From Amphiura filiformis (taxonomy: Eukaryota; Echinodermata; Ophiuroidea; Amphilepidida; Amphiuridae): a stretch of 64,000 bases of DNA. Position 1 is the first letter of the stretch, and every line of letters begins with the position of its first letter. A program made the position numbers and the translations under genes. The stretch covers positions 42,784,599 to 42,848,598 of the forward strand of contig NC_092640.1 of NCBI RefSeq assembly GCF_039555335.1, in the 5' to 3' direction. The notes beneath the pieces are model-generated. The model had not been told where the DNA came from, ran no database searches, and saw nothing but the letters and a program-made list of their open reading frames with translations. Below are positions 3,401 to 52,452 of the stretch, in pieces.

Positions 3401-6400
3401 ACAGTATATTGAGATCTTGAAACTTCTGTAAAGAGCCACATACTTCATTATGTTCTTCTCCAAAATTCAAAATTAGTTTTGAACACAATATATAATGAAA
3501 AGATACTGAAAAATACACTACACAAAGATAGGCATATACTGTCCCAGATCAATTTTCATGTTGTTCTTTGAAAACATAACAAATACACACTATTGACATA
3601 ATAATTTTTCAGCAATTTTTTTGTTTACATTATTTTTTCTCTGATTTTGTACATGAATGCAAAATTATAAATAATAGTCCAGGATAACTGTGGATGTGTC
3701 TAAAGTTTGTTCAGCTTTTAGTTTTTTAGGTGGAAATTATTTGGCTTTTTGTTACTGTGCGCCAATAAAGTCCCAACTCACGCTCACAGAATTCACATAA
3801 GCGCAAGCGCAGGTCACGCATTATGCAACGCACAACTAGCGCAAGCATAGCGCAAGCATTGCGCCGAACCGTGTGCATGCCATTCTATATCAATACACGG
3901 TGTTACGAGTCTTGTTTTTTTCACCTTATAATAAACCGAACAAACTTCAGAGCTAACCAATATAGTGGACTTATCATCAAATGCAATGTTGTTTCTCATC
4001 TATTATATCAATTGGCAATACGGACCATCCCTGGTTCCATGTGCATCTGCGTTTGGAGGTGCGTTTTCATACGAACGTCCTCGAACATGGCAAATGCGTA
4101 CGCACCCCTTCTCATGCACAAACACTCCACACACACCCCCCCCCCACCCGTCTACTTACCATAGCTGGTATTATAATCTGTGGTTGCCTCATCTCTGTTG
4201 ACTCTATTTTAGGTTCCAGAATCTCGGCTGGATCTACGATAATATTACACCACACACGATGACCAAACTGTTGCCCACTCTGCGCCAGACGCCAATGGCT
4301 CTGATACTGGCCAGGATTGGTCGGGGCAGTATACTCTACACACACAGATCCTTCTTCCCCTGGGTTCAATGCGGGTACATTGATAGGGTCTTGGCACATG
4401 GTGGGTATATTGCCCCACAAGAACTTCAGCTGTAAAGAAAAAAAAAAAATTCCAATATGCTGAACATCCCATTGACATTGAACTTTTCCTGCAGAGTCCA
4501 CGGAAGAAACTTTTTCAGTGATACCTAATATAGTGTAGTACCCTATGTTTTTTGTGGGAGGTAATGGAACATTTTGAGATTTTGGCCTTAAATGATAGAT
4601 AAGGGTTCCAGGAACTCAAATCAAATTGTTACCATTTTTTTCCTCCCAGCCCTTGGTGGCCATCTTGAATTTCAAAATGGCCGCCACTTTTTACATATTT
4701 TGGATTATAACTTTGCTTCTGAGCTCCACATCAAGCTGAAAATGGTGGCAATACCCATGTTTATGATGTCAAGGATTACAATGAAGGCATATACAGGGTT
4801 ATACGTCATTTCGTTTGGCGGCCATCTTGGATTTCAAAATGGCTGCCATCATGAACACATTTTTGGCTATATCTGAAGTTGTGCGCCAATATCCATGGTG
4901 GCAATATCCATGTTTATGATGCAAAAGATTTGCAAACAAAGCATATATACACAAAGGTACAGGGCATTTCATTTGACAGCTCTCTTAGATTTCAAAATGG
5001 CATACAAACAACATATTTCGACCACAATATTTATCTTAAATTCAGAGTTACTTAAACCGGTAGCAATAGTAATAGTAATACACATGTTTATACTGCCAAG
5101 GATTACAAAAAAAGTTCCAAGAAAGTTACATTATCTGATGGCCACCTTAGATTTCAAAATGGCCGCCATTATTATCATATTTTGACTTGCACTTCTTAAC
5201 ATTTTGTAAGGTACTGCATAATTGCAGGTTCTACATAATTGTTTCCAATTTTGATTGCATGAATTTTAGGTAAACCATTAAGAACTGAAACTTACTAGCT
5301 TGACTGTAATACACCATTATAATATTATTACTCTCTCAATCTCCTCGCTTGTTTCTGGCTCAGTCAGTATGTTGTAACAGTCCTCACTAGAATTGCACTA
5401 ATACACAGTTCAGTACATTAAGTTATTACTTTTGCAGGTACAGCGCATTGTGGAGTACATAGTCTTTGCACAGTTACATCTAATAGGTTCTAAGTTCTGC
5501 AACTGTTTCCGGTGCACACTCCACAGACGTTAACACCGGCATTAATTTTAGATCCATCTTTGCACCATCCATGTGTACAAGGATCATAAATAACTGGGTG
5601 CAAAACGTCATCCTGTGTCCATATGCTGGCTTGAAGATGCGCACGGTAGATATGCTGTAAAATAGCACCGGGCGTTGGAGGAAGCTTGTCAATACCCCCG
5701 CGAGGGTTTAAGTTTTTGGAACCTTTTCCACCACAGGGAAGCAGCAATAGTAGCTGCTACATCTTTGGTACTGAGCAGCATGCACATGAATCCCTCACAT
5801 GAATTCCTCCTGTGTACCATGGCCAGTACTGCACTTCAGGTCTGATGTGTTTGTTAATACATCTCTTCTGGTGACAGTTACTGCAGGCTTTGTGTAGCTG
5901 GAAATGGCCTTATCAGCCAGGAAGAGCGTTAGGCTATTTTTAGACTTTCGTCCAGCTCCGCAGATCAGCACCACATCCTTTCCCAGGCAAAGACACAACA
6001 GCAGGAAAGAGAAATTCATGCACTAAAAGGCATTGGGCCAAGACACATTTTTAGGAAAATCTGTATAACGTCATGACTAACCAGGTTGTCGAAGATCATA
6101 CACAACAGTCGATTTTAGGTTTTGAAAGCAGAGGTGAGAGAGCAAAATTTGACTTTGTTAATGCTCGAATCAATGGAGATAAAAGCCTCTGGAAACAAAT
6201 GACATGTTAAGTACCAAATTGGGATAAACTCGGCAAAACGGTCAAACTGAAAGCCAGTGGTGAAGTCTTGCACCTCAAATCAGCAAGTACAATGTTGTCA
6301 AGGGTACAGGTTGTAGCAAAATCACAGAGACAGACGGAACTTGAAGAGGTGATATCTCAGTATGATCTCATTGCCATAAACTCTACTTTGATGAACACTA

Positions 6401-41128: not shown

Positions 41129-41751
41129 TTAAACTGTCTGTAATCTTGTGTCTTCAGGGCTCTCACACAGATACATCTTCTTCCTCAGCGTGTTAAACAC
41201 CGATGCTGTTTGCTTGTTCCCTTCTTCATCTACAAAAGTACTCATGTTCTTATTAACCATAGTCAGCAAAGTCAGTATGTCATACTTTGTACCTGCCTTC
41301 CGGATGGTCTCAACGAGTGACCCAATGTACCATGATCCTTCTGTAGTATGACGGTATGCTACATGACCTGGTACAGTAGCATAACCAAGGATAAAATCCG
41401 ATTCATTTGGTATTGTTTCTTTCTCTGTAAGACCATCATGCTCTAGTGAAGAGCCTTGTCTCTTGATGCCTAGACATGACTCGAAGATGAACAGCTTTGG
41501 CTTCCCTGATAACGTCCTACAGATGTCGGCTGTGAAGAGTTGCGTCAGTTTCAAGATGGGAATGGACGTGCCATCGCAGCCGTAAAGTTTACTGTTAGCT
41601 CCATGTGTTAATACGCAGCATACAAAACAGTCAAACTTGGAGTGGTCTGTTCGCCGTTTTGAATCCAGGATGTCATACATAGCAGATTGCTTCAGGTTGG
41701 TGCGTACTTCAACCTTGTAATTGAGACCTTCAAATAGCTGCTTCAGATTTT
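41129..41751 (-). CDS. Kinase-caspase exon 8: caspase catalytic part, p20 end and p10
   Basis: Acceptor ataatttcag; the first two bases complete a Glu codon with exon 7. It encodes FDCFVCCVLTHGANSKLYG with catalytic His499, KLFIFESCLG with Cys542, then a p20-p10 linker containing LEHDG, then IPNESDFILGYATVPGH, YRHTTEGSWYIGSL and TLRKKMYL, all caspase-8-like. The stop TAA is at 41131-41129. The pentapeptide is ESCLG where caspases usually have QAC(R/Q)G. LEHD|G fits an initiator-caspase self-cleavage site. Three tail residues past the fold make no known domain. Confidence 0.9.
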
Positions 41752-44700
41752 CTGAAATTATAAAGGTAGATTTCATTTAAGTTGATTACTTTAAATGACT
41801 CCCACCTCCTGTCTACTCTTAGGGGGCTGTCATTTTCTTTGGAAGGGGGGTCATGAATATGTAGGTGACCAGAGTCATTTTTTGTGACTCCCCCTCCCCA
41901 TAGCAGGCTGAAATTTGATTATGACCCCTCTATCTCCGACTGATAATTTTAAAGAATTTTTGTTTTTACTATCCTCTATCATGTTATAGGGCAGGTACTA
42001 TTAGTTATTAGGTGAAGCGGAGGTATAGTGCAGGGAAATTATCGTGCGCTGAAGTGTCATACTGGGTGAAGCCGAACACTTCGCGCACGATCATTTCCCG
42101 TACCATACCTCCGCTGAACCTAATAACTAATTTATCATACCACTAAGTCATTCTAAATATTGAAATAATTACGTTTTTAAACATTTTAATTGCTGCTAAA
42201 TAGAAAAAAAAATATTACAGAAAAATAGATAACTGTTCCGCGTATTACAGATTGCGTGCATTTTACGCGCCCGGTTTACGCATATCGCCTTTATACGCGT
42301 ACCTCGCCGTACACGCATATCGGGCTTGCAAAATACGCTCTCACTGACTAGATATAAAGCGTAAAATACGCACTCACTGACTAGATACGAAAATATATCA
42401 GGTTAGCGGTGTTCTTTGATGTTTCCCTTAGTGGTATGATAAAATATTTTATCATAATGGATATCAGCTGTTGCACCGCATATCCACTTCTCAAAATATT
42501 AGACCCATCTATCGTTTATTCTGTAATTTTACTTTGCAATACCATAACCTGGTATTTGGTAATCATATCTGCACTATTTACAAATCTGATGCTTCAACAG
42601 TATATCAAATGTCTCTTATGGTAGGCATTCCAGAAGGTTTACATCCAAGCTCAGCTAGAAATTGACAAGTGTATGGCTGTCATTTGGAACAACTTGGTCT
42701 TAGAGTTTATGTTCACTGATGAAGTTAACTGTGATGAATGTACGAACACATCCATTTACGCTCACCTGCATCCCGATCAGATCCATGTCTATCCTTGAAT
42801 TCAGGATCCTTTAGTCTCCTTGCTTTCCCGAAATCTACATTATTGATGATAACACATATACCATGGGGTTTGTTCCTCATGTGATAATGCCGAACCTGAT
42901 ATGATGCCCCAAGAGTGGCTGCAGATGAAGATTTTGGCATGGATCCCACTGTTCCTGATCTTGTGGATGTTCCTGATATGAATAAAGGGTTAGGGTAAAA
43001 GCTTAGGGTTACATTTTTAATATGGTGTATTCCAGGGGCTATAATCAGCCCATGCCCATAACAAACAATTGATATTATGACAATAACAATGCATACATAA
43101 AAGTATAGTAAGAATCTCAGCGTTAGTACAAGGTGTAAATGTTAGGTTGTTTCAAAACGTTAGAAAATTCTGATTAATTAGTTGTTAATTGATTTAAATA
43201 AGCATTCAAGCAGCATTCTAATTCAGTTGGTGTGTCTTGTCAAGAATACATGCAATTTGATTGGTTTTCACCTATACAAGATGTCACGATAGTGGATAGT
43301 CATATAAGACAGTGAGCGCGCCTACGTTGCGACACGTAACCGTGGCGGCATGCATGTAGATTCTCACTGATCGCGCGATACTGTGTTCGCCTAATACATG
43401 TGCGCGAAATAAGAACGCGATTCGGCGGCTTAGATGTTCGCAACAGTTTCGTTCATTTAAAACAACGGGGATGTACTTCCAAAAGTAACTTGATTTTTTC
43501 TGGAAAAAAAGCACTTTTACTTATAAAAAAAAAGAATGAGAATAAAAGATAGGATTTTGTCTTTTGCCTTTTGTCTTTTCCAATATCGTGTCATAATGGA
43601 TGGGCTGGCCAATATTTTTATCGTAGTGGATACCGGCTGCACCGGCATTGGCCAGCCCATCCATTATGACACAATATTGGATAGGCAAAAGACAAAATTC
43701 TATCTTTTATTCTCTAATTGATGGTCGATCATAAGATCAAACACATTTGGTTCCTTATTTTGGTGCCTTATACTGGTTTCATACTTTCTGCCACTTGCCG
43801 CTGAGCAGTGTGACACTTCATCATGCCACTTGCAGTGTCTGTAAGCGGAGCAGCACTAAAGCCAATGTTGCCACTCAGCATTGCCAAAAAACTTATTTAT
43901 ATATTCTCATACACAGCCCTCGAATTAAGGATCTGAAAGGGCACGGCAACTTTTTTAGGGCAAGTTGAAAATTGCCTTGGATTTTCACTGAAAAGGCAAG
44001 GCAGCATGGCAGTTTGTAATATTTCAAGAGGGCATCATGGCAACTGTTGAAAATTTGAGAAGGGCACAAGACAATTTTTCAAAAGTGAAGAAAACACACA
44101 CAAACTTAGATAGATGATTTTATAATGAAGGGGCAGGGCTGGGGCACAGACAGCAACTTCATTAGAGGGCACGGCAAGTGACTGCCTTGGGTAAAGAACA
44201 TATTTTGAGGGCATTACGGCAGTGGGGATGGGCAGCCACGGCAAAATGTCATGGGTGCCGTGGGTTAATTCGAGGGCTGCTCATACATCCGAGTTGACTT
44301 GAATTGAACTCCTAACGAACCTGCCGCTTGCGCAAAGCTGTGGAGTGATCAATATATTGGCTTGTCACTGGCCACCGCTAGTGTTTTTGGTGTGACTGGG
44401 CAGTGAAGCAATGTCAGAGCAGCAAAGCGGCAAGAAAGTATGAAACCAGCGTTAGGTTAAGTTAGTGTAAGTGTGTGTGTGAACAAGATCAGTGTTAACT
44501 AACACCAACCTTAATGTTAAGAATTTACCACTGATAAAGTGTCAGTTCTAAAGCAAATATGCTATTTAGACTGTACGTGTGAACAATTATCGGTGTCAGC
44601 AATGCTGAAAACAGGGTTCTAACAGCCCAATATATGCATTACTCCAATATGTATGGAAGTGCCCTTTGTGGGTTGGTTTCACTGGTTTTACCCGAAAACT

Positions 44701-47700
44701 ATAGCATATCTTCTCCTGTCATAGGGCCCTATTGTAGCACTTTTGTGGGAACGATTAATATCTTTCCCATTTTTCCTCTGATATGAACCCCTAGTGTTGC
44801 ACTTTAAAGGGCATAATTCACATACATTGTAACATTTTGGAAATATGCGGCTTTTATATACATACCTTGCAATTCATGGGTCTCGGCATGAAGTTCTCCA
44901 GAAATTACTTCACCAGTTTCCATAGGAACATCTACAATAAATATAAAAGAAAACTGTCAGCTACACTCTGCATCACCATTGTTGAATGTAAGATTATTAC
45001 TACACATTGGGGTCATGCACTCACTAATATGTGCAGATGACGTCAAACTCCCAATGTTATGATTCTTTTGCCTTTCTTGCCCCTGTGCCAGCATACATGT
45101 ATGCATGATTCTGTTCTTCCACACTCACATTTCTGTTCTATCAATTTCCTCCTAATAGAATTTGTTTTCTTAGGTTTTTTAAATCCAAAGCTAATTTAAT
45201 TCCGCTACATTCAATTTGCCTGAAACACAATATTATTATACTAATTTCCCTGTTCTCTAAGCCTCCTTTAAATAAATGTTGACATTTATATAGCGCCTTT
45301 CACATGTATCAAAGCGCTTTACATTTATTCCGCCGTCGTTAGAATATGTCAGCTGCCATACAATGCCCAAGGCATGCTCATACCTTTAGGCGGTGCTCAA
45401 TGGACAATATCCATAACAGCTCCCCATTTCACCCCTGGGTAGAGAGAGGCAAGTGAGGTAAAGTGCCTTGCCCAAGTGCACAACACGATGGCACCGCCAG
45501 GGCTCGAACTCGCAACCCTCCGATTGCGAGGTAGAGCCTGTACTGCTGCGCCACCGTGCCCAACCTTTTCATTATTTCATTCCAAATCAGTTAAATAAAC
45601 CTCACTACTCATGAACACATCTGTCCAGGCCTCAAACTTTGGAATTGGGACCAATTTTAGAAACCTTAACCAAAATTTTAAAAATAACCCCAAAATGACA
45701 ACTAGATGACCTCTGACCCCAAATTCATTGGTACCTGTGAGGAATCCTGGCATTGGAATCACTCCACAAAGATTTCCTCATTTCATGGCACCAGCGTTCG
45801 AAATAGGGCCGGTCATCCGGCCATTGGCCTGTAACTTTTTGGTCTGGCCGGTAACTTTTCTGACTGGCATCTAGTTGCCGGCCCGGCTGGCCGGGAACTT
45901 TTTAAGGTCAAGCCCGGCTGGCCTGTAACTTTTTGAGGCATATTTCGAACACTGGGCACAGGCATTTCCACCAACTTACCTTGCCCTCCTCCCGATCCTG
46001 TTGACATGGTCGCCATATCTGCATCTTCACCTGAAGAGGTAAAATAATTAATTTCACAGTTTTAGCATATACTGCATGCATCACATAGCTTAATTATATC
46101 CCTTAGTTCAATCTAACTGGGTTTAAAAGTTATAACTCCATATGCAGTCTGTGCTATTTTCAACTCATTAATTGGGCATAATAATATTGCAGAATCTAGT
46201 CTTTTCTCCCCACATAGGAGTAATAGTAAGGATAGGGGGAAGACTATATTGTGGAATTACACCATCCATTTTTAATGGTTAATTACTACAATTATTGTAA
46301 GCATGCACTCTAAAAAAACCAAGTGTGTGGCCGGCTGTGGACAAAGCGGTTCACATGTTGAGGGAACACTGTATGTCCCTTCAGCGTAATCAAAGTGTAG
46401 CACCAATGACACAGGAGGGGGGCAGTGCAGGAAAGATATTACAACCGGGTATGACTTGGCCCAGTGACACAAGGCCAAAGGTTTCTCCATTTGCCTTTTT
46501 TTAATAAGGCCCCAATTTTCATCTACCCCTGTACGCAGTTAGTTCTCGGCAACCTTGGTGATAATAGGGAGGTTTTAGGCTTACCTGATAACTCATGACC
46601 TGCATCTGTAGTAAAAAAATATAAAAGTTTCAATGATTACTTTCATGTAAGACACTTGAACGACTTTACTGTTATAATATTGCTGAAAGACAAAATGCGC
46701 AGTATATACAGTGGTAAACTGCATGACCGTAAATGACATTAAAGGGGTCAGTCTCAAAAGGGGTTCAGGCTTGATGCCCTCTGTTGTAAAAAATGATTTC
46801 ATCTTCTGGTCTTATGCATTGATCTGCTTGCTATAAAACATTGCAGTAAATTAATACAAACTTGATCAAAGTTTCTAAAACTATCGACATGTAATAATTT
46901 GATTTATTTATTGTGCAACATGCATGAGTGAAAGACATGCACCGCCACCTGATACATTAGTTTATATGATAATGATAATTACCATATTTATTATGTTGGC
47001 ATTTGGTCTGTATGCACAAAACAAGTTCACCAGGTCTTTAGACCTGGCCTATGTAGTTTATAGTATTACAGCCTTTTTGCATTTAATACCTTCTCTATTA
47101 TTGCAGATCCTGTTACATTAAATACATGAACAGCTTAATATATTATGTAAGTTGAACTTTTGGACTTTGCTATGAGTAAACTTGAGGAAAAGAAAAGATT
47201 AAAGGGATCCCTGCCTAAGTCTAACCTCTATAGTTAGACCAGGCCTAACTTTAGACCTGGTCTAAATTGTTTGTGTATACATACCTTGTTGTTTTTAAAC
47301 TGTTAAAATATAAAGAACCAAATTAACCCCCTGATCACTACCTGCCGATCTAAAATTGCCTCTGATTGGTCAATTACATGATATCTTCACTTTAATCACC
47401 AATCAGAATGGAGCTTTGCAAATAATTCACCCCAACTTTTTTGTGTGGTGAAATTATTCTAACAATGTTGCTGATTGGTCCAATTGATAATGAAAACTGT
47501 TTTGTCCAAACTGTAATATCATGATTATTTTTGGGATAATTTGTAGAATCAAATTTCTCTCTTACCTTGTTGAAGATGAGATGAAGCTAGAAAAGGTTTT
47601 GCTCCTGAGGATGAAAGTGGACTGACAGATGACATTTCTACATCTGCAACAGAAAGATGAGACAAATACTATAGAGGTTGTGCATAAACGGTTCCAAAAA

Positions 47701-50700
47701 AGTAAGCCCCCCAGACATTTTAGTATAATCCAAAAACGGCTTGATCAATTCTCTTGTTTTAAAGTTAGGAAGGTAGACTGATTAGTCATGCATCAAGTGC
47801 GTGGGTTTTTGTTGCTACTTTTTAGCATCTTCATTGCAAACTGCAGCCATTTATGAAATTTTAGGCCAAAAAAGTTGCATTTTTCTACATAGGCCTTTTA
47901 TGCTTCAATTTGTGTTTGACAATTATTTCCCTTTAAGTGAGTAATTTAATCAAAAAGAAGCATAATTTAATTTAACTAAATTTAAGCTTTTCCTGATTTA
48001 GGTGTCACACATTCAAAAACAGTTTTTATGGTTCAGTGAATAAATTAAAATGAATGCTGCTGCAGCTTATTAATGTCTTTCAAAAAATGAATAGGCCTTC
48101 CTTCATGTGAGATGGCTTTCAAGCATCGTTCTTCTCTGCTGTTGGTCAAGCTGGTTTCCCGCATGCTGCAGGATTTGCTGCAAAGTTCTTTAAGGTGGTG
48201 TTGTCCCTCACTTGTCCGCTTGTAACAAGTTAAGTCTTAATAACGGCCACCCATATAAATGTTTTTTTGACCATTCAAAGAATGACCACAATGAAACAAG
48301 TGTATAGGGATCCAGCATAAAAGATCTAAATCTGTTGATCCATTGGTTAAATTAATCAATGAACACAAGATTTATCATTGAAGTTAGTTGTTCCTTCCTA
48401 ATAAATTTAATTAGAATGAAATGCTTGTTAAATTTACGCATTTTAATGCATAAAAAAAGCCAATTTAGAAAAGTGCAACCTTTATTGATGAATACAATTT
48501 CATGAAGGGCTATATGATTACTCACTGAACCATAAACATGTTTGAAATGTAACTAGAAATGTCACAGTTTGCGTCGAATGGGATGCCTCCACCCTGATGA
48601 CCCCAAAATGACCTTGCAATGACCCCTTGGTGACCCTCAAATGATCTTCCAAAAATTTGGCTCTAAATGTTGAGTGTACCCATCAAGTTTCATGCCCATA
48701 TGACAAATTTTATTAATTTGACCTCAGATGACCCCTTGGTGACCCCGAAATGACCTTCCAAAAATTTGGCTCTAAATGTTGTCTGTACCCACCAAGTTTC
48801 AAGCCCATACGACCAATTTTATTAATTTGACCTCAGATGACCCCTTGGTGACCCCGGATGACCCCATCATGACCTTCCAGAAATTTGGTTCTAAATGTTG
48901 ACTGTACCCACCAAGTTTCAAGCCCATATGACAATTTTTAGTAATTTGACCTCAGATGACCCCTTGGTGACCCCGGATGACCCCAAAATGACCTTCCAAA
49001 AATTTGGCTCTAAATGTTGACTATACCCACCAAGTTTCATGCCCATAGGATTTGAACTGTCCATATGAGACCAAATTTACAAGTTGACCTCAAATGACCT
49101 TTGACCTCAGTATATGACCTTGAACCCCACCCAAAAAAAAGTATCCAGGGTTTCTGACCATGACCAACCTATCCTGAAAATCTGAAGTCAATCCTCCCAT
49201 CCATGCCCGAGATACAGCATCCGGACGGACGGAAGCACGGAAGGACGGAAGCTCGGAAGCTCGGACATTGCAAAAACAGTATGCCTCGCGGTGGAGGCAT
49301 AAAAATTAATTCATGAACATCTTAACTTAAGTTATTTTAATAAAAAACAAAAAAAAATATATAGAAACGTTCCTTTTTTATTAATTTTCTTCAAATGAAA
49401 GATGTATGAAACCAAAGGTCATGCATAAAAAGCCTATGTAGAAAAGTGCAACTTTTATTTGGCCGAAAATTTTATAAATGGCTGTATTTCTCAGTGAAGA
49501 TGATAAAAGATAACAACAAAACCCCGTTCACTTGATGCATTACTAATCAGCCTATGTTCCAAACTTTAAAACAAGAGAATTGAGCAAGCGGCCGTTTTTG
49601 GATTATACCAAAAATTCTTAGGGGGGACTTATTTTTTTGGAACCGTTTATGATGTATCATACCGTAAATATGGCGGACTACTCAAATGCATTCAACAAAA
49701 GCATGATTGCAATCTACCGTGACAGTTCGTCTCACATACATAACAAATGCACTACAATCAAATAGGTTGATGACAACATTTGATTGAATGGACTGCACTG
49801 CGCCATGATTACGGTGAAGGACACCGGTTCAATTCCTTTGTTTGGAGTCAATCAATAATTTCACGCACAACCTCTATATTTTAAAAAGTACTATTTGTAA
49901 ACTTATGATATCATATTTTTTTTAAAAGAGTAATTACAATAAATAAAATAAATAATGGAAATAATAAACACAATTCAACTGAAGCTTTTGATAGCAATTT
50001 ATGTCCACAAATATATGGTTGAATTCAGAAACCAGGGATGCAAGTGGCCCGACGTGATTTTGCAGGAAAAGCCTGAAAAGCGCATAAATTAAGGCTATAA
50101 AGCCACAAAACGGGCTGAAAATAAATAAAAGTGCATAAATTTGGAGTAACAAAAAGCAGGAATTCCTGCAAAAGCAGGAAAACTTGCATCCCTGAGAAAC
50201 TCTTCCACTCAAATTATAGGTTTTGTTTTGGGCTGTTTTTCTTGGCATTTGTCTCTGCAGAACAGCAGGAACATGCTGTGGAAAAGTATTTGTCTCTGTG
50301 GAAAAGTATTTATCTGTGGAAAACATTGCAGAACATTTTACCACCTGTGAAAAATTTGCCGCTGCATCTGTTGCGTCGAGAAAATACCTGTGCGACATTG
50401 ACCTCAGCCTAAAATCAAACCAAATCATAATCTGGGGCCATGCAGCAAAATTAGTGTGATATCCTAGCTTGTTGTTGTTATAGGACTGCTGATCAGCAAA
50501 ATCTTAATTCTGTCCAAATCGAAGTTACAACTTTTAGTGACCATCCACCATGAATGGGCCAAAACGAATAGAAAAAAAATATTTTGAGAAAATGACACTC
50601 CAATGTGTTAGAAAGTGAATACTATCTAGTCCACTTCTGGTGGACTCACGATAACTTGTCAATTACGTTCTTGTTATATACAATGTTGAATGTTCCTACC

Positions 50701-52452
50701 TGATGTAGCACCATGGGCTACTGTCTGTTCAGAGTCACACACTGTTTCATACCTTCTTGATCCTCCTATGTCTGGTTCGACAACCTCTTTCACTTTACAC
50801 TGATCTACAAGGAGAAAACATCATTTGGTACATTAGAAAAGAAATTATAATGACAACATCAACTAGGTATAGTATATTATAGTCTGTATATCTACCTCGA
50901 TCACCGGCACTAGCTTTGAAGTTCAGCATGTGCTGCCTTGGCTTAGCGTTGTTTCTTGCGTGTATATATATGCAGCATGTTGATCGCGCACGTAAAAGTA
51001 TGTATACGCACCAAGTAATGCTGAGCTAACACAGAACATGCTGAACTTGACTCAAGGTAGATACATTGTATACATACTATATAGTTGGCTTGAATGTGAA
51101 TATTATTTAAATCTGGAAATGCTAAAATAATTTTAACATTTTGATAGTTACAAACCAAGAATCGATGTCCATATACTTATTACAGTGTCATCATAAGCAA
51201 GAGATGTGAGAGAAAGATTGTGGGAAAACAGATAGCAGTGCACAACATAACATATGAAGCACTATAAATTTTCATAGACCAATATATTTGTTAGAAATAT
51301 AATCTATACTTTAGTGTAAATTATACATAAGTGACAAAAAAAGAAACCCTGTTCTACAGGCCTGACCAAATTAAAAAATGACTAAATTTGTGGTATGCAT
51401 GTACAATCAGCCGGGGTTTTTTTGGCCATAAGTGGCCGGATCAAGTTTAAGAGAAATTGCTGGTCAATTCAGCAATTGCAACTTATTTACAGATTTTGGT
51501 GATTTTTAGATTCATTTGCTTAAAAAAAAAGACGACAACAAACCAACCCTACTTGAAAGGTCCGTCTACTCCTAGAACACAGTTGTGTTGTTTTTCATCA
51601 CCTAATATAATAAAGCAAAAAAAAAAACTTACACGGCAAAAGACGCAGACAAACCTCGCTGATATCAGGTCTTTCATTTCTATCCGCATCCCAGCAACTT
51701 GTCATAAGAGATCGTAACACATCTGGACAATCTAAAGGTACTATTGGTCTTTCTCCTTCACCCACTGCCTTCATAACTTGATAATTACCCTTATGTTCCG
51801 CATATGGTATACCCATAGTAACTATTTCCCACGCTACGATACCGAATGAAAAAATATCAGATTTGGGTGATCTTTGCTGATGTTGTGCTACTTCTGGGGC
51901 CATCCAGTTACAAGTGCCCTTTCCTTGTGTCTTTTGGGTTGTTTCCAGATGAGTTGCTAACCCTAAATCTCCTAACTTTAGGGTGTAATCATCCATGATC
52001 AAAAAATTTAACGATTTCACATCGCGGTGACTCAGCTTTAAAGTTTTGAAGTACTGGAGAGCGCAAGCCGCTTCATAGATCCACTTCCACACACATTCTT
52101 TGGTTAGTCTTTGGTTGTTTTTTCTACAATCGTCCAAGAAGTTCCGCAAGTCTCCTCTCTCAGCATACTCCATAATGATAAACACATCATGCTCATTTTG
52201 TTTCCAAACTCCATAGAATTTGATAATGTGTTTGTGCTCCGTCTTTTGCATGATTTTGATTTCCGAATCATCTATTGATCGAGATGGGACTTTCTTTGCA
52301 GCAACTGGAATCTTCTGCCCAAGCTGGCCTGTATAGGTTGCACGCCACACTTGTGACTGACCTCCTTTACCAATGACATTGTGGAGTTCAATGGATGATG
52401 CTGGTAGAATGTGAGATAATTGTCTGTCAAGTCTTGGGGCTGATGCCATCAT
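41129..52452 (-). CDS. Predicted TKL kinase - caspase fusion protein (656 aa, 8 exons)
   Basis: Joined exons: 52452-51633, 50804-50700, 47643-47566, 46605-46585, 46030-45980, 44931-44866, 42972-42766, 41751-41129. All introns are GT/AG and every internal junction is phase 1. Residues about 20-270 are a complete protein kinase domain; 274-380 are a Ser/Gly/Glu-rich linker; 405-656 are a caspase p20/p10 most like caspase-8. Kinase landmarks: G-loop 27-35, Lys53, Glu64, HRD 142-144, DLG 162-164, APE 185-187. Caspase landmarks: Arg442, His499, Cys542, Arg583. There is no DED, CARD or death domain. An in-frame stop upstream of ATG 52452 supports that start. In vertebrates RIP kinases and caspase-8 interact as separate proteins; a fusion would couple both activities. 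Alternative: two genes, the kinase ending by read-through into intron 1 (stop at about 51598). Confidence 0.72.
41752..42765. other. Intron 7 of the kinase-caspase gene
   Basis: Contains a foldback repeat (41998-42130) and an adjoining inverted-repeat element (42129-42437), with cgcgcgt-rich sequence between. No gene seen. Confidence 0.55.
41998..42437. mobile_element. Foldback plus inverted-repeat element
   Basis: Ttagttattaggtgaagcgg and agcggaggtat pair with ataccatacctccgctgaac and taataactaa within 130 bp. A second pair, ttatcataccactaag (about 42132) and cttagtggtatgataa (about 42427), encloses sequence with repeated ctcactgactagata. Confidence 0.65.
42766..42972 (-). CDS. Kinase-caspase exon 7: caspase p20 start
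   Basis: Acceptor ttcatatcag and donor gtgagc, phase 1-1. It encodes a Ser/Thr-rich lead then YQVRHYHMRNKPHGICVII, NNVDFGKARR and DRHGSDRDA, matching caspase-8 YKMKSKPRGYCLIINN and the RxGTxxDA strand. Arg442 in DRHG is the usual S1-pocket arginine. It joins exon 8 in phase to give RDAENLKQLFEGL. Confidence 0.9.
43538..43717. mobile_element. Hairpin MITE
   Basis: Gagaataaaagataggattt at the left pairs with aaattctatcttttattctc at the right. The arms run about 85 bp with cataatggatgggctggcca in both orientations. Confidence 0.85.
43773..44449. mobile_element. Inverted-repeat element, host of a nested hAT MITE
   Basis: Ctggtttcatactttctgcc at the left and (aaagtatgaaaccag) at the right are inverted. 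It is interrupted by the element at 43914-44279. Confidence 0.7.
43914..44279. mobile_element. Nested hAT MITE, CTCATACA target duplication
   Basis: Inverted ends CAGCCCTCGAATTAA, with perfect 8-bp flanks CTCATACA at 43906-43913 and 44280-44287. The interior repeats gggcacggcaa-like motifs. It inserted into the older element around it. Confidence 0.9.
44866..44931 (-). CDS. Kinase-caspase exon 6 (linker)
   Basis: Phase 1-1, 66 bases, acceptor ttattgtag and donor gtatgt. It encodes DVPMETGEVISGELHAETH plus ELQ. Acidic and probably disordered; no domain. Confidence 0.7.
45264..45563 (-). mobile_element. tRNA-derived SINE
   Basis: On the minus strand the head reads gcacggtggcgcagcagtac with a B box gcgagttcgagccc (45523-45510). 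The body runs down to about 45264, through gcgctttgatacatgtgaaa. It lies in intron 5 of the kinase-caspase gene. Confidence 0.65.
45792..45954. mobile_element. Small inverted-repeat MITE
   Basis: Ends cagcgttcgaaata and (reversed) cagtgttcgaaata, with repeated ggccggtaacttttt inside. It ends 26 bases before linker exon 5. Confidence 0.6.
45980..46030 (-). CDS. Kinase-caspase exon 5 (linker)
   Basis: Phase 1-1, 51 bases, acceptor acctcttcag and donor gtaagt. It encodes EDADMATMSTGSGGGQ: acidic then Gly/Ser-rich, a flexible linker. Confidence 0.65.
46585..46605 (-). CDS. Kinase-caspase exon 4 (21-nt microexon)
   Basis: Phase 1-1, acceptor tttttactacag and donor gtaagc. It encodes DAGHELS. Its small size and symmetry suggest a skippable cassette. 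Confidence 0.55.
46606..47565. other. Intron 3 of the kinase-caspase gene
   Basis: Repeated agacctggtctaa-like motifs at about 47030-47265. No gene or bounded element. Confidence 0.45.
47566..47643 (-). CDS. Kinase-caspase exon 3 (linker)
   Basis: Phase 1-1, 78 bases, acceptor tctgttgcag and donor gtaaga. It encodes DVEMSSVSPLSSSGAKPFL then ASSHLQQ. Ser-rich and probably disordered. Confidence 0.68.
47671..49877. mobile_element. Large inverted-repeat element with nested insertion
   Basis: Outermost tatagaggttgtgc (47670-47683) and gcacaacctctata (49863-49876) are inverted. The arms continue as ataaacggttccaaaaaa and ttttttggaaccgttt, then acaagagaattgag and tcaattctcttgt. It encloses a tandem-repeat element (about 48570-49305). 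It lies in intron 2 of the kinase-caspase gene. Confidence 0.7.
48570..49305. repeat. Element with about 115-bp tandem repeats (first copy)
   Basis: Four or so copies of a unit with gacctcagatgacccc, ttggtgacccc, aatgaccttccaaaaatttg and acccaccaagtttca. Inverted edges gatgcctccacc and ggtggaggcat. Same family as 54540-55490. Confidence 0.8.
50033..50194. mobile_element. Small hAT-like MITE
   Basis: Ends cagggatgcaagt and acttgcatccctg, with agaaac flanking both sides. It accounts for part of the 164-codon minus-strand open frame here, which I do not accept as a gene. Confidence 0.65.
50700..50804 (-). CDS. Kinase-caspase exon 2 (linker)
   Basis: Phase 1-1, 105 bases, acceptor tctccttgtag and donor gtagga. 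It encodes QCKVKEVVEPDIGGSRRYE, then TVCDSEQTVAHGATS. With the kinase exon the split codon is TAT (Tyr); with any exon ending in G it would be GAT (Asp), as at the other exons starting AT. Confidence 0.7.
50805..51632. other. Intron 1 of the kinase-caspase gene
   Basis: AT-rich intron. Contains an inverted cluster cagcatgtgctgccttggct/acacagaacatgctgaact around 50925-51050. No gene seen. Read-through from the kinase exon would stop at about 51598. Confidence 0.45.
51633..52452 (-). CDS. Kinase-caspase exon 1: complete TKL-like kinase domain
   Basis: A single 820-base exon, start ATG ATG at 52452, ends in phase 1 at gtaagt. It encodes a full Ser/Thr-type kinase fold: IGKGGQSQVW glycine loop, VAAKK lysine, SEIKIM helix-C Glu, hinge MEYAERGDL, LSHRDVKSLNFLI catalytic loop, GDLGLA, WMAPEV, SDIFSFGIVAWEI and RPDISEVCLRLLP. 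The HRDxKSxN loop and WMAPEV place it near the MLK/ZAK and RIP kinases of the TKL group. The metal-binding motif is DLG instead of DFG, which many kinases tolerate. The lack of introns across the domain hints at origin from a processed copy (inference). Confidence 0.92.

Follow-up and report, generated by a model that had tools for sequence, protein, structure and literature searches.

The question raised by this locus is whether a protein kinase and a caspase, encoded on the same strand of the genome of the brittle star Amphiura filiformis, are parts of one polypeptide or the products of two adjacent genes. The locus lies on the minus strand of a 64,000-nucleotide stretch of contig NC_092640.1 (hereafter the window), for which a preliminary description had proposed an eight-exon gene, with introns of phase 1 throughout, encoding a kinase-linker-caspase protein of 656 residues. 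This model was rebuilt exactly from the window sequence, the eight exons yielding an open frame of 656 amino acids and a stop codon that ends at 41129, with GT-AG borders and phase 1 at all seven introns. Translation starts in exon 1 (51633..52452), which also encodes the entire protein kinase domain (Pfam match 52392-51649). The linker is encoded by exon 2 (50700..50804), exon 3 (47566..47643, starting with DVEMSSVSPLSS, a motif common to the linkers of paralogous proteins), exon 4 (46585..46605, a 21-nucleotide micro-exon encoding the residues DAGHELS), exon 5 (45980..46030) and exon 6 (44866..44931, starting with DVPMET), all of phase 1-1. The end of the linker and the start of the caspase (domain from about 42862) are found on exon 7 (42766..42972), and the remainder of the caspase domain, up to the stop, on exon 8 (41129..41751). 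Among 2101 six-frame stop-to-stop pieces of at least 20 amino acids, taken from the whole window, a local kinase profile matched exon 1 alone and a local caspase profile matched the frames of exons 7 and 8 alone. The window is therefore not a cluster of kinase and caspase genes.

The joining of both domains in one predicted protein was confirmed by a public A. filiformis protein of 649 amino acids (P0005; 'uncharacterized protein' at NCBI, 'isoform X2' in UniRef), which was recovered through a search with the caspase part that listed 37 proteins. P0005 lacks the seven residues of exon 4 and is otherwise identical to the 656-residue model; as the naming of a second isoform suggests, skipping of exon 4 may have transcript support. 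Pfam analysis of P0005 placed PK_Tyr_Ser-Thr at residues 21-268 (E 1.6e-57) and Peptidase_C14 at residues 411-636 (E 1.4e-54; 185.7 bits against a gathering cut-off of 21.4). The same arrangement was seen in P0044 (A. filiformis, 647 amino acids), which has the kinase-linker-caspase order of P0005 and is 37% identical to it (245/654 columns) across kinase and caspase, and in P0057 (A. filiformis, 943 amino acids), found by a profile search of P0044 with P0005, in which kinase and caspase are followed by a ZU5 domain. The absence of DED and CARD domains, which had been claimed for the window protein, was borne out for P0005 and extended to P0044 and P0057, none of which gave a Pfam match to either domain at E up to 0.01. 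With an independently predicted protein and two diverged paralogs of the same order behind the claim of a single polypeptide, the kinase-linker-caspase architecture is, at the level of predicted proteins, well supported.

The competing explanation is that two adjacent genes were misjoined, both in the preliminary description and in the public annotation, the kinase stopping within intron 1 near 51598 and the caspase being expressed from its own promoter. Since the frame of the kinase exon stays open up to a stop codon at 51598, an intron-retained, kinase-only product is possible. However, P0005 joins every exon of the model, exon 2 included, except the one of 21 nucleotides, the paralogs P0044 and P0057, listed on a contig of another length (78.6 Mb against 67.5 Mb), are joined in the same order, and a linker motif is common across the kinase family, so that two separate genes are unlikely, and in our estimate very improbable indeed. 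A further point against them, that neither AATAAA nor ATTAAA occurs in intron 1, is weak and does not discriminate, because neither signal occurs in the 628 bases past the caspase stop either.

Further members of the kinase family were recovered with the kinase part as query, which found 16 proteins at E up to 1e-10, P0044 among them and the top five all from A. filiformis. Besides the caspase fusions, the close kinase relatives in this species comprise P0043, in which the kinase is combined with a C-terminal Death domain (matching THO complex subunit 1, PIDD and CRADD, and RIPK1 more weakly), P0045, in which it is combined with a Roc GTPase, and P0042, a partial model with a kinase and no further Pfam domain. 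The tail of P0057 matches chains of ZO-1 and UNC5B. Both local profiles, kinase and caspase, were matched by three of the 173 fetched proteins, namely P0005, P0044 and P0057. As the profile search with P0044 and P0005 listed 120 of 861 matches, with neither the query row P0005 nor the known relative P0043 among them, these counts give weak grounds for regarding the architecture as confined to A. filiformis. The species thus has at least two predicted fusions besides the window one, and together with the relatives above the three are best read as members of a brittle-star family in which the C-terminal cell-death module appears to have been varied. In P0045, HCD stands in place of HRD and the activation loop is shortened, which may leave this kinase weak or inactive. 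C-terminal matches to NHL repeats were also seen in related MAP3K20-like kinases of A. filiformis (P0065, P0066 and P0067), lying above the Pfam cut-off in P0065 and P0067 and slightly below it in P0066.

The linker of about 130 residues is mostly predicted to be disordered; in the structure prediction the stretch 293-404 had a predicted local distance difference test (pLDDT) score below 50, with the kinase and caspase regions on either side. The best 50 rows of a fold comparison were all kinases, and the comparison was therefore uninformative on the caspase half. The motif D[VI]xMx[TS] was found in five of the six family linkers, including those of the Roc and partial members, and in none of 20000 shuffling rounds did it reach five linkers, the motif having been picked after the sequences had been viewed. 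Two copies in the window linker start at exon borders, those of exons 3 and 6.

The kinase half had been described as TKL-like, which agrees with its match to PK_Tyr_Ser-Thr and with the presence of the catalytic Lys53, the HRD Asp144 and the metal-binding Asp162, the last standing in DLG and not DFG. When a profile of the six A. filiformis kinases was compared with solved structures, the top three rows were MAP3K20/ZAK, followed by an EGFR chain, MAP3K7/TAK1 and MAP3K12 (best 60 of 2485); with the single kinase sequence as query, EGFR came top, followed by FAK, with TAK1 lower (best 60 of 2569). ZAK carries a SAM domain, and none was found in P0005 by Pfam at E up to 0.01. No RIPK was present among the best 60 matches of either query, and a RHIM-like core, [IV]Q[IVLC]G, was found neither in the six A. 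filiformis proteins nor in the 656-residue model. According to PMC11507063, RHIM is lacking from some RIPKs as well. By the profile comparison, ZAK/MAP3K20 and TAK1, and not the RIP kinases, appear to be the closest kin of this kinase. The parallel with RIP kinases drawn in the preliminary description is consequently one of domain arrangement.

For the caspase half, the earlier assignment as caspase-8-like was upheld, protein and PDB searches both indicating a caspase-8/10-like peptidase; in the PDB search with exon 8, the best five rows were all caspase-8. Of the 37 proteins listed with the caspase part, 33 carry a DED and one a CARD (precomputed Pfam). The catalytic dyad is retained as His499 and Cys542, each residue being present in 44 of 45 aligned rows including the window copy, and in all three fusions the catalytic His and Cys and both S1 Arg (Arg442 on exon 7 and Arg583 on exon 8 in the window copy) are intact. 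The active-site pentapeptide reads ESCLG in the window copy (Glu540-Ser-Cys542-Leu-Gly), QACQG in P0044 and QACQA in P0057. Thus, although family and dyad hold, the window caspase does not have QACxG with its S1 Gln, carrying Glu540 two residues before the Cys, where 43 of the 45 aligned caspases have Gln and one has a gap, and flanking the catalytic Cys with Ser and Leu. A Gln in this position contributes to holding the P1 Asp; in paracaspases and metacaspases the position is acidic. Since Glu replaces Gln at an S1-pocket position, the window copy probably differs from its paralogs in substrate preference or activity, and its activity or its specificity for Asp may be altered. The inter-subunit linker of each of the three fusions contains an Asp with a small residue after it, LEHD/G in the window copy, and ICHD/A and VPTD/A in the others, further Asp residues being present there too. 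LEHD is the cleavage preference of initiator caspases, and the window LEHD/G step (LEHD at 41435..41446, minus strand, between p20 and p10; cleavage after Asp555) is a candidate processing site.

The origin of the fusion was addressed with a kinase tree of the 45 best-scoring of 129 profile hits and with two caspase trees. Of 48 profile hits, 41 entered the first caspase tree, once three fragments or duplicates of the window protein and four matches of short length had been removed; the second was built from 34 rows, after the exclusion of fourteen named ones. One clade (support 98/96) was formed by the six kinases of A. filiformis, and P0044 and P0057 paired both in the kinase tree (91/76) and in the caspase trees (100/99). 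The caspase of P0005 took no well-supported position in the caspase trees. Two readings of these trees remain: after a single fusion, some copies may have had their caspase replaced, or the same kinase family may have been fused on two separate occasions to caspase-8-like proteases. As the whole kinase of the window gene lies on one exon that ends in phase 1 and every linker exon is 1-1, the kinase could take a different C-terminal module, and the combination of motif copies at exon borders, a one-exon phase-1 kinase and symmetric linker exons fits exon shuffling, by which, we infer, the family arose.

Taken as a whole, these results are best read as describing a putative death-fold-free caspase of the initiator type, with a MAP3K-like kinase serving as its recruitment domain. 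In the corresponding model, favoured here with moderate confidence, one gene encodes kinase, linker and caspase, a ZAK/TAK1-like TKL kinase of the MAP3K type stands in place of the death-effector prodomain of a caspase-8-like protease, and the members of a shuffled family are activated through self-association. An upstream stress or immune signal would lead the kinase to self-associate and autophosphorylate; this would bring two caspase domains together on the long disordered linker, and the paired domains would become active by proximity, with no need of a FADD-like adaptor, and then undergo processing at the junction of the large and the small subunit. According to PMC2575513, induced dimerisation can activate a caspase catalytic domain in an artificial fusion. 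The direct switch from phosphorylation to proteolysis envisaged in the preliminary description is a plausible proposal. Put forward more tentatively is the view that the MAP3K-type kinase of brittle stars would be a plug-in activation domain for cell-death effectors, gating a caspase in the same chain in place of a death-fold adaptor, with exchanged modules (caspase, caspase-ZU5, Death and Roc) and with a window caspase that has shifted off strict Asp specificity.

Several observations weigh against the favoured model. P0005 is itself a prediction, and the join is drawn from gene predictions. The kinase tree places P0005 with the Death, Roc and partial relatives (95/84), and a single fusion was neither shown nor rejected by the approximately unbiased (AU) test, with p-AU values of 0.50 for the caspase tree and 0.16 for the kinase tree. 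The phase-1 case for shuffling is drawn from the exon structure of the window gene. Alignments of whole linkers among family members were mostly no better than shuffles; of 15 pairs, P0042-P0045 and P0044-P0045 alone had scores reached in 0/300 shuffles, the figure for the window linker and P0044 being 6/300. Confidence in the predicted structure is modest (mean pLDDT 65.4; predicted template modelling score, pTM, 0.47). Finally, the uniqueness of ESCLG among the 45 compared caspases and the long branch of the window caspase (1.27-1.37) make lost or altered proteolysis possible.

The same two features of the window caspase can be taken as the basis of a different explanation, in which this copy, as a caspase with a regulatory role, weak activity or a changed specificity, would heterodimerise with P0044 and P0057 and so tune them, much as caspase-8 is tuned by cFLIP, with its own kinase as the input. 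In its favour, the paralogs retain QACQG and QACQA where the window copy alone has Glu, and this Glu resembles the acidic residue of paracaspases and metacaspases. Nevertheless, the His, the Cys and both S1 Arg are intact and the LEHD/G step is retained, whereas cFLIP is without the Cys; the explanation is regarded as rather unlikely in this form, although a specialised or modulatory role within the family is possible for the window copy. It was also considered that the main target of the caspase might be its own linker, cleavage of which would free or activate the kinase, with a p38/JNK-type output as the effector. The mostly disordered linker does contain Asp steps, including ATSD/V, EDAD/M and GGQD/V, the kinase appears nearest MAP3Ks, which feed p38 and JNK, and several caspase-cleaved kinases behave in this way. 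These steps are, however, candidates by sequence, with a disfavoured Val or Met at P1', and the proposal is judged improbable. Kinase-driven pairing of the caspase domains is retained as the preferred reading.

Kinase and caspase activities ordinarily reside on distinct partner proteins. In vertebrates, kinases and caspase-8 act on each other via adaptor complexes, and a chain with both domains would make it possible to see whether the adaptor can be replaced by a kinase, besides offering a one-gene test system for phosphorylation-gated proteolysis and a natural example of a caspase whose active-site motif has changed. Caspase-8/10 provide the nearest caspase-domain sequences to the window protein, which differs from them in the absence of DED and CARD, in having a kinase at the N-terminal place and in reading ESCLG and not QACQG. 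MAP3K20/ZAK and MAP3K7/TAK1 are among the top structure matches of the six-member kinase profile, but the window kinase is fused to a caspase, has DLG for DFG and showed no SAM domain. RIPK1 shares the order of an N-terminal kinase followed by a cell-death module, most directly with P0043 and its C-terminal Death domain; nevertheless, because no RIPK was found among the best 60 structure matches of either query, the likeness is one of arrangement only, and there was no RHIM-like core and the Death domain of P0043 is nearer those of THO complex subunit 1, PIDD and CRADD.

The closest precedents are hybrid innate-immune genes of amphioxus, in which, according to PMC2575513 and PMC3196919, caspases are joined to TNFR, LRR or Death domains, some of the hybrids, TNFR-caspase included, being backed by cDNA; they are ascribed there to domain shuffling and described as pathway shortcuts. 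The brittle-star proteins resemble these hybrids, as so described, in that a caspase has been joined, in a lineage-specific manner, to a signalling domain that acts upstream. A natural kinase-caspase, on the other hand, is described at none of the three places in PMC2575513 where 'kinase' occurs, and the word occurs 0 times in the main text of PMC3196919. In the NCOA6-clade TRADD-N and Roc-COR conflict-system proteins of PMC8195603, whose effectors are exchangeable, kinase and caspase are alternative modules at one place and, at the 12 of 53 places covered in that source, are not combined into a kinase-linker-caspase chain. The main text of the A. filiformis genome paper (PMC11310086) contains 'caspase' 0 times, and in the open-licence PMC literature no kinase-caspase protein was named in the titles or abstract openings among the matches listed. 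Hybrid caspase genes are thus known from amphioxus, and the kinase is rated as a new and functionally suggestive partner, by which hybrid immune genes of the amphioxus type would be extended to echinoderms. Other predicted proteins with unusual caspase combinations were also seen, namely P0019 (Dreissena polymorpha, 780 amino acids, partial), in which a caspase (1.2e-60) is followed by a Gasdermin pore-forming domain (4.1e-17), P0068 (metagenome source, 679 amino acids), with TIR, STING ligand-binding and caspase domains, and P0022 (metagenome source, 455 amino acids), in which a caspase is followed by ubiquitin-like domains.

The window was surveyed with Pfam on 24 of its 33 stop-to-stop frames of at least 100 amino acids, a coverage at which genes made of small exons would be missed. 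The NCBIfam models matched were nearly all bacterial or archaeal, every match lying below cut-off, and no Rfam match was obtained in the window at the gathering score. Intron 2 of the fusion gene contains a tandem array (48619-49047, period 119, 3.8 copies). On the minus strand of intron 5, at about 45300-45560, a sequence resembling a tRNA-derived short interspersed nuclear element (SINE) was recognised by eye; ARAGORN reported no tRNA genes in the window, this stretch included. Away from the fusion gene, an open frame at 4112-4615 on the minus strand encodes an NBR1-type Ig-like domain (N_BRCA1_IG, E 4.2e-16).

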